A stretch of 32,157 nucleotides of DNA, taken from an uncultured Clostridia bacterium. Its GTDB lineage: Bacteria; Bacillota_A; Clostridia; Oscillospirales; Oscillospiraceae. The stretch spans positions 1 through 32,157 of the forward strand of contig CAMVIC010000002.1 in the NCBI GenBank assembly GCA_947167435.1, written 5' to 3'. The translations under genes and the position numbers were made by a program. A model generated the notes under the pieces. It had not been told where the DNA came from, did not search any database, and saw only the letters and a program-made list of their open reading frames with translations. This document shows positions 27,750 through 32,157 of this stretch, in pieces (position 1 is the stretch's first letter; each line of letters begins with the position of its first letter).

Positions 27750-29174
27750 TCACGCCCCGCCGGCAGGCGCCACGGCCTCCAGTCCCAGCTGCCCGGCGTA
27801 GGACTGGAACACCTCCAGGAGTCCGGCGGTGTAGGCCGCGTAGTTTTCCGGCGCGTACACATAGTCCTCCCGGTCTGCCTTGAGCGTCAGCATCTGCTCC
27901 AGATAGGCGGTGATGGGTACAAAGTGGCCGATGTCATCCTCCAGCCCTTTGGTGTAGGCCAGCAGGTAGGGCACCTGGAGCTTGTTGACGGTGACGGTCT
28001 CGCCCTCGGCGTTGACATAGGTGATGCTGTTCTCGCTGTCGACGGCGTATTCCGTCTCGATGTTCGGAAAGGCTTCAGAGACCAGCTCCCCGTACAGGGC
28101 GACGAACTCGCTGCTGTTGTCGCGGATGTGCAGGTCCTTCTCATAGCCCCAGAACTTCCGGGCATAGCCGCCGTCCAGCTTGGTGTCAAAGTTGTAGACA
28201 GTCACGTGGTTTGCCACGGCGTAATCGTTGATGAGCTTGATGACCGCCTGGGTGTTGCCGCACCAGCTGCCGCCCAGCAGGATCAGATAACTGCCCTCCT
28301 GCTCCAGCAGCCACCGGAGCTGCTTATAGGTGACGGTCTCGATGTGGATGGGCTCGCCGGGTGCGAAGAGCTCTTCCCCGGACTTCTCGTTGTAGGCAAG
28401 GCGGATATAGTCCCCATCGCTGAAGGTGCTCAGTTCCACGGCACTGACCGCCTCAAAGACGCGCTCGCGCAGGATCTGCTTGTAGGCCGCGACGGCATCC
28501 CCATTTTCCTTCTCGCCGTCCACAAAGTCTTCCCGCACCTTCATCAGCTCCAGGCCAGCCGCAATGGGTGCTGCCTCGCCCTCCTCGCTCACATGGTCCT
28601 TGTTGTACAGGAACAGGAAGGGCACCTGCACCTTCGGCACCGTCACGTCCGTACCGGCCGCGTCGGTATAGGTGAGGGCGGACTCGCTGTCCACGGTGTA
28701 TTCCACAAAGTCGTTCAGGTTGGTGAGATAGCGGGTCACCAGCTCCCCATAGAGATAGTTGTAGAGGCTGCCGCTGATGAGCGCGTCCTTGGAACTTGCG
28801 CCGTTGGTCTCCCGGATATGGCTTGCGCGGCTGCTGCCGTCCAGGCGGAAATCCAGATTGTAGATGGTGTCCACCCCGTACTCCTTGGCCACCTCATTGA
28901 TGTAGCCGATCACCGGCGTGGTGTTGCCGCACCAGCTGCCGCCCAGCAGGATCAGATAGTTTCCCTCCTGCTGGAAGAGATAGACGGCTTCCTCCCAGGT
29001 GAGCGAGCGATAGACGGAATCTGCGTCGTTCAGATAGGCGTAGTCGCTGTTGTAGTAGGCCTTCTGCAGGTCAAGGTTTTCATCGGAGGACCGGAATTCC
29101 CCCTCGGCAAGCGCGGGGACAGACAGGGAGAGCAGCAGCAAAGCGGCTGTGAGGATCGATAAAAAGCGTTTCAT
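27750..29174 (-). CDS. Secreted protein with two monothiol thioredoxin-like domains
   Basis: 474 residues. Residues 1-23 are a signal peptide ending ALA. Two homologous domains follow (about 40-235 and 265-465). Each has LILLGGSWCGNT, the thioredoxin active-site position with a single cysteine (Cys82 and Cys305) in a CGNT motif where classic thioredoxins have CxxC. Each also has a downstream QVP segment (KVQVPFL, KLQVPYL) that fits the cis-proline loop. These appear to be the only cysteines in the mature protein. Monothiol sites suit binding, glutaredoxin-like exchange or mixed disulphides with small thiols rather than oxidation of proteins. Both domains also share WEE/KQLR-type helices and a DSExxxTY strand, so the gene arose by duplication. 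It is the last gene of an operon with a TcyP-like cystine transporter. Start follows AAAGGAAAGGAAG. Function is inference. Confidence 0.82.
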   Translation of the reverse strand: MKRFLSILTAALLLLSLSVPALAEGEFRSSDENLDLQKAYYNSDYAYLNDADSVYRSLTWEEAVYLFQQEGNYLILLGGSWCGNTTPVIGYINEVAKEYGVDTIYNLDFRLDGSSRASHIRETNGASSKDALISGSLYNYLYGELVTRYLTNLNDFVEYTVDSESALTYTDAAGTDVTVPKVQVPFLFLYNKDHVSEEGEAAPIAAGLELMKVREDFVDGEKENGDAVAAYKQILRERVFEAVSAVELSTFSDGDYIRLAYNEKSGEELFAPGEPIHIETVTYKQLRWLLEQEGSYLILLGGSWCGNTQAVIKLINDYAVANHVTVYNFDTKLDGGYARKFWGYEKDLHIRDNSSEFVALYGELVSEAFPNIETEYAVDSENSITYVNAEGETVTVNKLQVPYLLAYTKGLEDDIGHFVPITAYLEQMLTLKADREDYVYAPENYAAYTAGLLEVFQSYAGQLGLEAVAPAGGA

Positions 29175-29204: not shown

Positions 29205-29708
29205 TTATGGGCAAAGCTCCGGCGCCGCCACAAGCTGCGGCGCGGCCACGACAGGCGGCTGTGCGGCGGCGTCCGGCCCGTATTTGGCCCTGGCCGCCTC
29301 CAGATCCGCATAGTTTTTTACAAGCGGTGCGTCCTCCTCGCTCAGGCAGGAGGCGAAAGCCTCCTCCGCCCGGGCGAGTTTTTCTTCAATGATTTCAGTG
29401 GCTTCCTTGTCCCGGATTGCCAGGTACATGTCCTTGATGGCCAGCTTCACATATTCCACCTTGGCGTCTTTCAAGACCTGCAGCTGCGGGAGTTTTTCCT
29501 CCAGGTGCAGGTTCTCGTCGGCCGCGGCCAGTGCCGCGTCCGCCGCATCCAGGCGGGCTTTCGTCTCGTCGGAGTATTCCACCCGGCCGATGGCTTCGAT
29601 GGCGTCGGTGATCCGCCGGGCCTGCCAGCGCGCGGAGAAATATGCCAGAGCCCCCAGCACCAGCGCCAGGACCAGCAGCAAAAGCAATAGCCGGATCGGT
29701 TTTTTCAT
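29205..29708 (-). CDS. Small membrane-anchored helical protein, unknown function
   Basis: 167 residues. Residues 6-24 are a membrane anchor (RLLLLLLVLALVLGALAYF), and the rest is highly charged and helical. The segment RRITDAIEAIGRVEYSDETK followed by ARLDAADAALAA matches a helical repeat unit common in extracellular proteins of Firmicutes. An Ala/Pro-rich tail follows, with one Cys in the helical part (121) and one near the end (166). It overlaps the symporter gene by 4 bp (ATGA) and lies 30 bp before the thioredoxin-like gene, so it belongs to the same operon. It probably faces outward and may be an accessory part of the transporter or the secreted thiol protein. No function is known to me. 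Confidence 0.75.
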   Translation of the reverse strand: MKKPIRLLLLLLVLALVLGALAYFSARWQARRITDAIEAIGRVEYSDETKARLDAADAALAAADENLHLEEKLPQLQVLKDAKVEYVKLAIKDMYLAIRDKEATEIIEEKLARAEEAFASCLSEEDAPLVKNYADLEAARAKYGPDAAAQPPVVAAPQLVAAPELCP

Positions 29709-31063
29709 CTTTCCGTCCCCTCCTTCTCCCCCAGTCCGCTGCGCTCCGCCACGACCGCGGAGGCGATCGCCGCGCTGGAGACGTTGTCCGTCGTGCGGAT
29801 CATATCCGATATGGTGTTGATCGGGATCATCAGCACCACCGCCCCCACCGGAAGCCCCACCGCACTGAACAGCGCGATGGCCGAGACCACCGCGATCCCC
29901 GGTACGCCGGCGCTGCCCACAGAGAGGAACAGGGTGATTACCGCAAGGCTCAGGTATTCACCAAAACCCCATGGCAACCCGACTGCATGCACATAAAACA
30001 GCGCCAGCAGCACAGGCCACACGCAGGTGCAGCCGGGCATGCCGATGGTGGTTCCCAGCGAGGCGGTGAAGTCCGCCACCTCCCCGGCGACCCCGGCGCC
30101 CTCTTTCAGGCAGCGGATCGTGACGGGCAGGGTCCCCACGCTGGACTGGGTGGTGAAGGCCGTGGCCTGGGCGGGGAAGATCGCGCGGAAAAAGTGCAGC
30201 GGAGAGCGCCGGGCCGCCAGGCGGACCAGCAGTCCGCCCAGCACATAGATGTGCAGCAGGCATACGCCGTAGATCACGCCCACCAGGACCAGCAGCTGCA
30301 GGATGGCCTGCCGGCTTTGGAGCAGTCTGCTGGCGGAGTCTGCAATCAGGCACAGGACCGCATAGGGGGTCAGGTCGATGACCGCCTCCAGAATCCTGAA
30401 CACGATCCGCTTTGCCGCCTCCACCAGGTCGGCAAAGGCTTTCACCTTCTCCTCCCCCTCCTGCCGGGCGATTGCCAGGTAGGCCGCAGCCGCGGCGATA
30501 CCGGTCAGGATAATGGCGGGCACATTGTTAGCCGCCAGGTCCCCCGCCAGATTTTCAGGGAACAGGGCCTCCAGCACCCGGTCAAAGGACTGGGTCAGCC
30601 CCGCATAGGCGGCCACCGTGCCGCTGTCCAGGGAATCCAGCTCCGAGAAAACGGTGCCGGCCTCACTGCCGATGTGCAGCAGCTGCCCGGCCAGGAGGCT
30701 GAGCAGGATGGCCGTCAGGGCCTGGAACAGCAGCCAGAACACCGACTGCAGGGCGATCTTTTTGGCGTTGCCCCGGCCACTGAGACTGATAAAGCCGGAG
30801 ATGATGGAGAGAAAAATCACCGGCGCAACCAGCAGCTTGAGCAGCTTGATATACAGGCGGCCCAGCAGATTCACCCAGATCAGCCAGGCGTTGTTTTCTG
30901 AGGAGAAGATCATGCCGATCCCTACGCCCAGCGCCATCGCCAGCAGGATGACCAGCGTCCAGTTGATGCGCTCAGCCAGCAGATACAGCAGCACAAATGC
31001 AAGCAGGACCAAGTCAAGCGCCAGAAATGGCATCCAGTGGACCGACAGCAAAACATTCATCAT
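29705..31063 (-). CDS. TcyP-like cystine symporter (DAACS family)
   Basis: 452 residues of the dicarboxylate/amino acid:cation symporter fold. Features are LYIKLLKLLVAPVIFLSIIS (70-89), the AFTTQSSVGTLP re-entrant loop (302-313) in place of the SSSA type, and ASLGTTIGMPGCTC near 334-347. From memory the order and the IDLTPYAVLCLIA and NGC-like GMPGC segments follow B. subtilis TcyP more than glutamate (GltP) or C4-dicarboxylate (DctA) members. A cystine role is therefore favoured, and the Cys-rich leader upstream supports this. Two tandem ATGs (31063, 31060) follow AAAGGA at 31079-31074. It heads a three-gene operon with a helical anchor protein and a secreted monothiol thioredoxin-like protein. 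Family is certain; cystine as substrate is inference. Confidence 0.85.
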   Translation of the reverse strand: MMNVLLSVHWMPFLALDLVLLAFVLLYLLAERINWTLVILLAMALGVGIGMIFSSENNAWLIWVNLLGRLYIKLLKLLVAPVIFLSIISGFISLSGRGNAKKIALQSVFWLLFQALTAILLSLLAGQLLHIGSEAGTVFSELDSLDSGTVAAYAGLTQSFDRVLEALFPENLAGDLAANNVPAIILTGIAAAAAYLAIARQEGEEKVKAFADLVEAAKRIVFRILEAVIDLTPYAVLCLIADSASRLLQSRQAILQLLVLVGVIYGVCLLHIYVLGGLLVRLAARRSPLHFFRAIFPAQATAFTTQSSVGTLPVTIRCLKEGAGVAGEVADFTASLGTTIGMPGCTCVWPVLLALFYVHAVGLPWGFGEYLSLAVITLFLSVGSAGVPGIAVVSAIALFSAVGLPVGAVVLMIPINTISDMIRTTDNVSSAAIASAVVAERSGLGEKEGTER

Positions 31064-31083
31064 TTCATCTTCTTCCTTTCCGA

Positions 31084-31210
31084 TGATTCCGCTCTACAAT
31101 CAGGCGCGTTGATTTGTCTGCTTGAAGGATTGCATATGCCGAGACGACATCGCTCCGCGCCTGGCAGCCCTGCGGCAAACAGAAAACGATCCATAATATC
31201 ACCTGCAAAA
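31084..31210 (-). other. Spacer between attenuator and symporter gene
   Basis: About 125 nt of untranslated sequence lies between the leader terminator and the ribosome binding site of the symporter gene. An open frame beginning ATGGATCGT crosses it, but it has no ribosome binding site and no family features, so nothing is called. Confidence 0.4.
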
Positions 31211-31242
31211 CAAAAATCCGGGGAGCCCCGCGGGCTCCCCGG
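31211..31242 (-). terminator. Intrinsic terminator of the Cys-rich leader (attenuator)
   Basis: On the minus strand CCGGGGAGCCC (31242-31232) and GGGCTCCCCGG (31228-31218) form a perfect 11-bp GC-rich stem with a 3-nt loop, followed by ATTTTTGTTTTG. It lies 25 nt after the leader stop codon and 155 nt before the symporter start. CTCCC at 31264-31260 can pair with GGGAG at 31239-31235, the 5' arm of this terminator, giving a short competing antiterminator stem. Confidence 0.85.
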
Positions 31243-31267
31243 TCCTGCACAAGTACGGTGGGAGAAC

Positions 31268-31348
31268 TCAAACGGGCACGGCAAAGCGCGTGTGCATATC
31301 ACAGCACACGTCACAACACACCATGCAGCTGAAGCTTGCCTTACGCAT
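31268..31348 (-). CDS. Cysteine-rich 26-residue leader peptide (candidate attenuation leader)
   Basis: ATG at 31348-31346 follows AAAGGAG (31364-31358) with a 9-nt spacer and runs to TGA at 31270-31268, 26 codons in all. Five codons are Cys (residues 8, 11, 12, 15 and 16), in the core SCMVCCDVCCD; the tail is a normal mix ending in Pro-Val. A consensus promoter lies upstream and an intrinsic terminator 25 nt downstream, ahead of a TcyP-like cystine symporter. This is the layout of amino-acid attenuators such as trpL or hisL, with Cys as the sensed residue. A hairpin CGTGTGC/GCACACG (31310-31304 with 31295-31289) covers codons for residues 13-15. When Cys-tRNA is plentiful, a ribosome reaching the stop would cover CTCCC at 31264-31260 and let the terminator form. 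Stalling at the Cys codons would free it. A short secreted metal-binding peptide is less likely, as there is no signal sequence. Confidence 0.75.
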   Translation of the reverse strand: MRKASFSCMVCCDVCCDMHTRFAVPV

Positions 31349-31392
31349 TGACCCGTTCTCCTTTAACCCATTTTTCCCATCGGGATAGTATG

Positions 31393-31421
31393 TTTATACT
31401 ACAGACTTCTCCCTTTGTCAA
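31393..31421 (-). promoter_or_regulatory. Consensus promoter of the leader and cystine operon
   Basis: On the minus strand TTGACA (31421-31416) and TATAAA (31398-31393) are spaced exactly 17 bp. A palindrome TAGTAT-gttt-ATACTA (31386-31401, plus-strand reading) covers the -10 box and could bind a repressor. The start point would be near 31386, about 22 nt before the leader ribosome binding site. Confidence 0.85.
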
Positions 31422-31538: not shown

Positions 31539-32157
31539 TTATTCATAACAGTCCGGCCGGCGAAGCTGGGTATAGGGCTTCGCGTCCCTGATCTCGCGGG
31601 CGCGGGACAGGTCCAGCTGGCACAGCAGCAGCGTCTCCTCCGCCCCGGCCAGCGCCAGGGTCGACCCGTCCGGCCCGCAGACCAGGGACTCCCCGGAAAA
31701 GTACATGCCGTCCTCCTGCCCAACCCGGTTGCACATAGCGGAAAAAACGCTGTTTTGAAAGGCCTGGATCTTAATCTCCCACTGAAACAGCGCTGAAGGC
31801 TCCGCGCTGGTGTTGGCCGTTGGGATCAGAATCAGCTCCGCGCCCCGCAAGGCCTCGGTGCGAATGCTCTCCGGGTAGTGCCGGTCGAAACACACCACGA
31901 TCCCGATCTTCCCCAGCTCGGTGTCAAACACGGAAAAGCCCTCCTCCGACGGGGTGTAGTAGTCCTGCTCATAAAGGCAGGGGCACTGGGCGATATGCAC
32001 CATCTTCTGCCGCCCGACAATCTGGCCCTCCCGGTCAATGAGAAGGCTGGTGTCATATGCCTTTCCGCCATAGCGGAGATAGAGATTCGGCGCGGCATAG
32101 ATCCGGGCCTCCCGGCAGGCTTCCCGGATCGCCCGGACCGCCGTGTCCTCTTCTCCC
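31539..32157 (-). CDS. Carbon-nitrogen hydrolase (nitrilase superfamily), 5' partial
   Basis: The frame stays open to the right edge of the window (first full codon ends at 32156), so the start and the catalytic Glu lie beyond it. The visible part has YDTSLLIDREGQIVGRQKMVH with the catalytic Lys (codon 32006-32004). IGIVVCFDRHYPE follows with the nucleophile Cys (codon 31892-31890), and then LILIPTANTS. Together these are the Lys and Cys of the Glu-Lys-Cys triad of amidases such as N-carbamoylputrescine amidase or omega-amidase. About 206 codons are present, roughly two thirds of the family length. The substrate cannot be assigned. It is upstream of, and in the same direction as, the cystine operon but has no clear terminator before that operon's promoter. 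Confidence 0.9.
   Translation of the reverse strand, partial: GEEDTAVRAIREACREARIYAAPNLYLRYGGKAYDTSLLIDREGQIVGRQKMVHIAQCPCLYEQDYYTPSEEGFSVFDTELGKIGIVVCFDRHYPESIRTEALRGAELILIPTANTSAEPSALFQWEIKIQAFQNSVFSAMCNRVGQEDGMYFSGESLVCGPDGSTLALAGAEETLLLCQLDLSRAREIRDAKPYTQLRRPDCYE

Follow-up and report, generated by a model that had tools for sequence, protein, structure and literature searches.

A probable leader-peptide attenuator with Cys and Met codons before a symporter operon of an uncultured Clostridia bacterium

The region upstream of a symporter gene in the window, i.e., the whole analysed stretch of 32,157 nucleotides, very likely harbors a ribosome-mediated transcription attenuator, through which a shortage of charged Cys-tRNA, and possibly of charged Met-tRNA, would turn on an operon for the uptake of sulfur amino acids. 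The first-pass annotation had proposed an attenuator sensing Cys, and our data support it: a leader ORF with clustered codons, an intrinsic terminator before the gene and, from covariation across copies, an antiterminator exclusive with that terminator are conserved as a set ahead of several sulfur-amino-acid operons. The comparison of the copies argues for each of these parts, for the richness of the ORF in Cys and Met, and for its repeated presence ahead of metY, cysK, and transporter genes.

The leader element and the operon behind it

The elements recognized in the window, in the order in which they are transcribed, are the following:

31416..31421, minus strand: -35 element TTGACA, read in the sequence, with a 17-nt spacer to TATAAA
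31393..31398, minus strand: -10 element TATAAA, read in the sequence
31376..31392, minus strand: candidate operator CATACTATCCCGATGGG, a diverged form (12/17) of CCTACTATGTCAATAGG; a weak resemblance, seen by eye
31358..31364, minus strand: Shine-Dalgarno site AAAGGAG of the leader ORF, read in the sequence
31268..31348, minus strand: leader ORF of 26 codons with five Cys and two internal Met codons, translated as MRKASFSCMVCCDVCCDMHTRFAVPV and then a stop
31261..31267, minus strand: strand B, GTTCTCC, the antiterminator 5' strand, abutting the stop codon (from alignment, pairing counts, and folding)
31234..31240, minus strand: strand C, GGGGAGC, the antiterminator 3' strand and part of the terminator 5' arm (from alignment and pairing counts)
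31218..31242, minus strand: intrinsic terminator hairpin of 11 bp, -24.7 kcal/mol, 25 nt past the ORF, with a conserved stem
31217-31211, minus strand: U-rich tract ATTTTTG after the hairpin, read in the sequence
31060..31194, minus strand: possible second leader ORF of 44 residues with three Cys (MDRFLFAAGLPGAERCRLGIC...), of putative function
29705..31063, minus strand: first regulated gene, of the sodium:dicarboxylate/amino-acid symporter family (PF00375, 299.7 bits)
29205..29708, minus strand: second operon gene, for a 167-aa protein with a relative in 21 of the 27 closer symporter loci (defined below)
27750..29174, minus strand: third gene, for a 474-aa protein with predicted thioredoxin-like domains and two SWCGNT motifs, with a relative in 23 of the 27 closer loci

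The TTGACA-17-TATAAA promoter, the AAAGGAG site, the 26-codon ORF with its five Cys, the 25-nt gap, and the 11-bp hairpin had all been listed in the first-pass annotation and were all found again in the sequence. The device lies on the minus strand between a carbon-nitrogen hydrolase gene (ending at 31539) and the symporter gene. In the leader peptide, Cys occupies residues 8, 11, 12, 15, and 16, and Met residues 9 and 18; in an ATGA, the stop of the second ORF and the start codon of the symporter gene overlap. An automated scan of the window listed no promoter; its rule requires the -10 element to end in T, and here it is TATAAA. TTGACA-17-TATAAA is present in seven out of the eight relatives' leaders examined (it is absent from the orphan L203; L163 and L179 are outside this count), and the -10 stretch TATAAACATA is invariant across the four leaders of alignment A3.

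When the 400 nt upstream of the symporter were dinucleotide-shuffled 400 times, an ORF of 15-45 codons preceded by a Shine-Dalgarno site and having five Cys in 14 residues never arose. Moreover, the folding energy of the 186-nt element is 3.05 standard deviations below that of its shuffles, none of 200 being equally low. The gathering-level Rfam search retrieved no T-box, S-box, or other family from the window, and only two tRNAs from eight relatives; neither the T-box consensus nor the specifier loop of a Cys T-box riboswitch was recognized by Rfam in any of them. Nine leader peptides searched against NCBIfam matched no family.

The symporter had been called TcyP-like. Its membership in the SDF family (PF00375) stands, but a TcyP identity is unproven, as no cystine-symporter model is among its NCBIfam matches; the best of these, DctA and GltP, are far below the cut-off, and NCBIfam may hold no TcyP model. 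The tie of the symporter to cysteine would come from the gene context rather than from the transporter sequence. The ends of the genes just upstream of the symporter in L009, L011, and L002 resemble, by eye, an aminotransferase or metY; the aminotransferase-like one in this group is presumably of the cystathionine beta-lyase (PatB/MalY) kind. The metY gene of G004 was placed just upstream of the symporter by homology search.

The 474-aa protein matched no Pfam family and had no convincing NCBIfam match. Its AlphaFold2 model has a mean pLDDT of 93, and PDI-like or thioredoxin chains make up most of the PDB matches listed for it. Single-domain thioredoxins match the model at a probability of 0.97-1.00 and a target TM of 0.51-0.60; none of the matches listed fits well over the full length of the model (query TM at most 0.18). 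This thioredoxin-like protein is kept near the symporter in Clostridia and, at lower identity, is found near many actinobacterial relatives.

Copies of the leader before metY, cysK, and transporter genes

In the Oscillospiraceae MAG RGIG3778 (G001), a leader of the window type is located ahead of metY, of cysK (twice), and of the orthologous symporter. The peptides are MRQASFNCMMCCDMRCEMRMRFGVPV for metY, MRRAIVNRMMCCDMCCERRVCFAIPI for cysK, and MKRTGSKSILCCATRCEMRVRFGMPR for the symporter, as compared with MRKASFSCMVCCDVCCDMHTRFAVPV in the window. A covariance model (R1), built from the window leader and from the metY, cysK, and symporter leaders of G001, was run on 400 genomes of the family of G001. 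Twenty-six out of the 400 genomes gave a match at an E-value of 0.01 or better, and 10 sites in five genomes exceeded 50 bits, the next best match scoring 35.5 bits. Matches at or below 35.5 bits were taken as background, since a 20.8-bit match on the opposite strand of the window is clearly spurious.

Three of the 10 strong sites were members of the model and seven were new. Four of the latter lie before metY (L176, L178, L179, and L202), one before the second cysK of G001 (L163), and one before a polar-amino-acid ABC permease pair (L177), while L203 is an orphan, without a terminator or a recognizable promoter; a sulfur or amino-acid gene is thus found downstream, in the same direction, at nine of the 10. 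As for gene identity, metY is above the cut-off of NCBIfam TIGR01326 in L124, L176, and L179; L178 and L202 match it with an E-value near 1e-97, below the cut-off, their genes being shortened by the contig or stretch end. The cysK gene is above the cut-off of TIGR01139 in L148 and L163, and the first permease of L177 is above that of TIGR01726. That the regulated gene serves the sensed amino acid is indicated by NCBIfam for metY and cysK, and by context for the symporter. Past the terminator, a second short ORF (NYRxxRM or HNFRNGRM) is seen in L124, L176, L177, L179, and L202, and none in L178 and L163; such an ORF may gate translation.

The symporter loci derive from one scan of genome contigs (80 out of 83 loci kept) and comprise 27 with at least 51% identity, referred to as closer, and 53 with 43% or less; the close relatives are mostly metagenome-assembled genomes. 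The search for Cys leaders upstream of related symporters, which had been suggested as a check, was successful in part. A Cys/Met-rich leader was found at 14 of the 27 closer loci (L001-L008, L010, L012, L020, L037, L079, and L080), but six (L013, L015, L017, L019, L021, and L023, the last with an unmatched gene start) have neither this class nor the different leader, ending with NFRxGRC, of the other seven (L009, L011, L014, L016, L018, L022, and L024). Variants of the NFRxGRC class are L014, which continues a few codons further, and L018, which reads NFKFGRC. On inspection by eye, the Cys-rich ORFs of L015 (a repeated stretch), L017, and L019 (far upstream) did not qualify as leaders and were left out of the count. 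No consistent Cys leader was found at the 53 loci with 43% identity or less; an ORF ending with MCMCCKLS was observed in L025, and L028 and L029 have a short stretch, RRCSCAA, in common.

Most of the 14 Cys/Met leaders cannot be aligned with that of the window. Among the loci, the most similar symporters are those of L079 (G002, 75% identical) and L020 (G001, 73%), and the Cys/Met leader of L079 goes unrecognized by R1; a protein sharing 94% identity with the symporter was retrieved as an amino-acid sequence only. Searching with R1 the 28 loci that have the leaders of other lineages gave a single weak match (L037, 17.7 bits). L001 carries two tandem attenuators (about -454 to 0 before the symporter): relative to L002, L004, and L008, the gene-proximal leader looks decayed in its start codon, in most of its Cys codons, and in its U tract, and the distal one has an intact Cys/Met ORF and a terminator further upstream. 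Probing by taxon retrieved the symporter from 2/295 genomes at an E-value of 1e-100, and from 8/300, 5/150, 4/46 (one family queried twice), 2/3, and 1/300 genomes at 1e-90; these searches added few copies, most being known already, and the viral contigs yielded one distant symporter.

Furthermore, metY and cysK were sought in 19 relatives' genomes, and 29 metY and 28 cysK loci were inspected upstream. A Cys-rich upstream ORF beats shuffles (p up to 0.03) at the metY of L118, L119, L121, L123, L125, and L126; at most of the inspected loci, no Cys-rich upstream ORF beyond shuffles was found with a Cys-only score applied to the longest ORF per locus. This script passed over the leaders of L124 and L148, which were found by reading, and its match at L128 is the leader of the neighbouring symporter. 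Two other leader types were observed. The NFRxGRC or HNFRFGRMC class occurs in other lineages, with metY examples in L100, L118, L119, and L121; a DNA pattern requiring CGA for Arg matched this class at 13 out of 16 loci, a codon constancy that we regard as a lead and not as a result. The third type, starting with MSSDC or MSGDCC followed by Cys codons, is found in L114, L115, and L125 and, in a gene-proximal position, in L006, L007, and L109; these leaders belong to Acholeplasmatales-like MAGs and precede metY, substrate-binding lipoprotein, symporter, or thioredoxin-like operons.

The sequence CCTACTATGTCAATAGG, which the candidate operator of the window resembles, is the reverse complement of a palindrome, CCTATTGACATAGTAGG, occurring at the sulfur-gene promoters of relatives. 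With at most one mismatch, the palindrome CCTAYTRACATAGTAGG has 19 sites in 14 relatives' genomes, versus two for the reversed control. Assigned by reading downstream, mostly in one direction only, eight sites precede the symporter, one a thioredoxin-like operon, three metY, three cysK, one a cysteine desulfurase, one a substrate-binding lipoprotein, and two genes without an evident link. The palindrome is probably a repressor site, and from its place we would guess one of the CymR or Rrf2 type; the promoter of the window appears to bear at most a diverged form of it. Predictions for clostridial CymR exist (PMC3828012, in its available part).

Alternative pairings, leader codons, and the proposed mechanism

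Eleven copies were aligned to R1, whose structure comprises the terminator and part of a helix between the Shine-Dalgarno site and the post-stop region, the antiterminator (B:C) not being included; L203 lacks a terminator, so 10 rows were counted. In the window, B:C pairs GUUCUCC with GGGGAGC (7 bp, two of them G-U). Across the rows it is paired in 91.4% of 70 cells, with changes on both sides in four of the seven pairs, and its covariation score was equalled by 1/500 shuffles. Kin copies may beat shuffles without any structure, while slid registers preserve relatedness, and these pair in 34-67% of cells. The terminator is paired in 98.2% of 110 cells, with five of 11 pairs double-changed and a score equalled by 0/500 shuffles. 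When the segment from B to C was folded alone, B:C was predicted in all 10 copies having it (5-7 of the seven pairs).

These data modify the antiterminator of the first-pass annotation: a pairing mutually exclusive with the terminator does exist and covaries across copies, but its register is the 7-bp B:C and not the proposed 5-bp CTCCC pairing. The antiterminator had been named the weakest part of the model; it gains from covariation, but in the window leader alone it is no better than shuffles of that GC-rich leader (p 0.41; 0.43 in a wider test whose terminators were located automatically, with three of 16 loci missed). The single-locus test paired the ORF end and the first 15 nt beyond it with the 5' arm of terminators set by hand. 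It gave p < 0.05 in nine of 16 loci (L003, L005, L006, L007, L008, L010, L012, L080, and L095), borderline values in L004 (0.053) and L001 (0.081), and non-significant ones in the window (0.41), L020 (0.72), L079 (0.16), L002 (0.64), and L037 (0.78); the Fisher combination is 9e-4 (eight groups, one p each, without L001). A pairing between the Shine-Dalgarno and post-stop regions, noticed by eye in the four copies examined first, was considered as the protector (1:2) stem, but covariation does not support it: this SD:B helix is paired in 84.6% of 65 cells, and its covariation score was equalled by 149/500 shuffles.

When the segment exposed by a ribosome at codon 16 is folded without the terminator 3' arm, strand C is taken by the ORF tail and not by B in the structure of lowest energy, and the stalled-state fold with the terminator complete still contains the terminator. 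The attenuator model therefore depends on kinetic order; the order of transcription matters in attenuators generally.

It is unlikely, in our estimate, that the leader acts instead on translation or mRNA stability, the hairpin being a partial terminator and some lineages being translational, as reported for mycobacteria. Such control would fit the second ORF overlapping the symporter start in the window, and the loci in which no terminator was seen by eye in the stretch displayed, between leader and gene at the symporter loci L009, L011, L014, L016, L018, and L024 and likewise in the metY loci L100, L102, L118, L119, and L121; however, the terminator stem is kept, with compensatory changes, in 10 out of 11 window-type copies.

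Concerning the codons, Met is enriched beside Cys, and the device may sense both. Nine leaders chosen by Cys alone contain 26 Met and 42 Cys out of 249 residues, and the seven additional copies retrieved with R1 have 31 Met and 25 Cys out of 173. In a set of 15 leaders (that of the window and the 14 Cys/Met leaders, minus L001 and plus L095), partly chosen by eye for Met too, there are 54 Cys and 54 internal Met out of 371 residues. Counting Cys and Met together per 14-residue span, 15 of 16 upstream regions beat shuffles (p 0.005 or less); with Cys alone, 12 of 16 do so at 0.05 (the exceptions are L003, L005, and L080, and L095, which failed the Shine-Dalgarno filter). Among window-type leaders, the five of metY have 5 to 6 Met versus 2 to 4 Cys, the two of cysK and two of the symporter have 3 to 7 Cys versus 1 to 3 Met, and that of the ABC permease (L177) has 5 Met and 4 Cys, in homologous and few copies counted by hand.

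The conservation of the Cys codons in homologous leaders, another check proposed beforehand, holds in large part, since Cys11, Cys12, and Cys16 are largely kept, but selection is mild. Over nine aligned rows (L163 and L203 omitted for gaps), the pN/pS of the leader ORF is 0.72 overall and 0.58 at codons 9-20, versus 0.79 and 0.92 in the other frames; pairwise values for nine locus pairs range from 0.41 to 1.7. Cys12 is conserved in nine of nine rows, Cys11 and Met9 in eight, and Cys16 in seven, with TGT and TGC swapping at codons 11 and 12. This weak signal would be in line with a peptide whose codons outweigh its sequence.

The same anatomy could also serve a nascent-peptide sensor, in which the Cys/Met-rich peptide, on binding a metal (copper or zinc) or being oxidized within or close to the exit tunnel, would stall its ribosome in the manner of arrest peptides. 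Both residues are metal ligands, and they co-occur in the leaders, where CxC and CC pairs are common; we nevertheless consider this quite improbable, for the downstream genes are those of sulfur amino acids or amino-acid transport, and the order and spacing of Cys and Met vary by lineage, with R1 missing the leaders of other groups (one weak match in 28 loci), as expected if the codons and not the peptide fold matter. A gene for a small functional Cys-rich protein with its own terminator and no tie to the symporter is hardly credible: promoter, Shine-Dalgarno site, ORF, and terminator do make a complete gene, but the leader recurs in the same direction before different sulfur or amino-acid genes at nine of the 10 strong R1 sites, and its post-stop nucleotides show covariation with the terminator arm, a feature for which an ordinary gene has no use.

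According to the attenuator model, with plentiful Cys and Met the ribosome would reach the stop codon (31270-31268) and hide strand B; with B covered, the terminator would form and transcription would end near 31211. When charged tRNA is scarce, the ribosome would stall at codons 8-18 and leave strand B free to pair with strand C, so that the terminator would be blocked and the symporter operon transcribed. Stalling, tRNA charging as the signal, and the direction of the response are what we infer from the sequence. Strand B begins directly past the stop; in the window, 33 nt separate it from the last Cys codon, and the Cys codons lie at nt 22-48 of the ORF; therefore, a terminating ribosome should hide B and a stalled one free it. 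This masking argument takes into account the size of the ribosome footprint. Sensing of Met is less certain than that of Cys, because a Met shortage should hamper initiation too.

A wider scenario, possible but short of probable, is that the leader reads Cys and Met codons together as an OR-type sensor for a regulon of uncultured gut Clostridia (the symporter with its thioredoxin-like partner, metY, cysK, and ABC permeases), the mix being tuned to the gene, and that the second leader peptide, of a conserved NYRxGRM(C) type in many copies, gates translation, giving two translation-based checks in series.

Comparison with known systems

In attenuators of the trp and his type, a short ORF contains codons for the regulated amino acid, and the antiterminator and the intrinsic terminator share a strand. 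The device described here is similar in its leader codons, in the shared strand, and in having a supply gene of the sensed amino acid downstream. It differs in the enrichment of two amino acids (Cys and Met), in strand 2 lying directly past the stop, and in a 1:2 protector pairing without covariation support.

The kind of control, ribosome-mediated attenuation, is known, and Cys versions are known or predicted in Actinobacteria and Rhodobacterales. The uORFC-8-2 motif before cysS in Rhodobacterales is a predicted attenuator with Cys codons in its uORF and an intrinsic terminator (PMC8632094); according to the available part of that paper, it has two tandem Cys codons and precedes a tRNA-synthetase gene in Alphaproteobacteria, with no mention of the Met enrichment found here. 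Mycobacterial polycysteine leader ORFs (Canestrari et al. 2020, as cited in PMC13236596) are Cys-responsive and leaderless by the title of that study, and act by translation attenuation in the accessible portion of the citing text. Leader peptides predicted for cys operons of Actinobacteria are described, in the part of the source at hand, as without a conserved terminator hairpin (PMC1262725). As far as these excerpts go, the mycobacterial and actinobacterial leaders resemble ours in the runs of Cys codons in a leader ORF ahead of cysteine genes; unlike the actinobacterial cys leaders, that of the window has a conserved terminator. Judging from the sequences, sulfur-amino-acid leader-peptide attenuation would extend well beyond Actinobacteria and Alphaproteobacteria.

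In T-boxes, the tRNA contacts the RNA directly and no translated ORF is known to take part. Ahead of cysK and cyst(e)ine transporter genes, Cys T-boxes of C. perfringens end transcription prematurely unless Cys is short, and the same clostridial study notes, in its available part, that genes without T-boxes suggest that other mechanisms may exist (PMC2940859). The device resembles them as termination control before cysK and transporters in Bacillota, but Rfam finds no T-box here. Leader-peptide attenuation has also been predicted in Bacillota for His in bacilli, which from the accessible text concerns another amino acid and another gene (PMC2965389). The first-pass annotation knew of no ribosome-mediated Cys attenuator described for this group, and our searches of open-access full texts showed no Cys or Cys/Met leader attenuator in Bacillota; the available portions of PMC7438776 and PMC8079986 hold nothing on Cys leaders.

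The leader may also be used as a functional tag, the genes behind such leaders being candidate sulfur-amino-acid genes, including the unnamed thioredoxin-like partner of the operon, and it would very probably let uncultured gut bacteria turn on sulfur uptake and synthesis when short. Cysteine control in Bacillota is described as CymR-type repression and Cys T-boxes; the leader device offers a specific candidate for a third mechanism, whose pairings can be tested.
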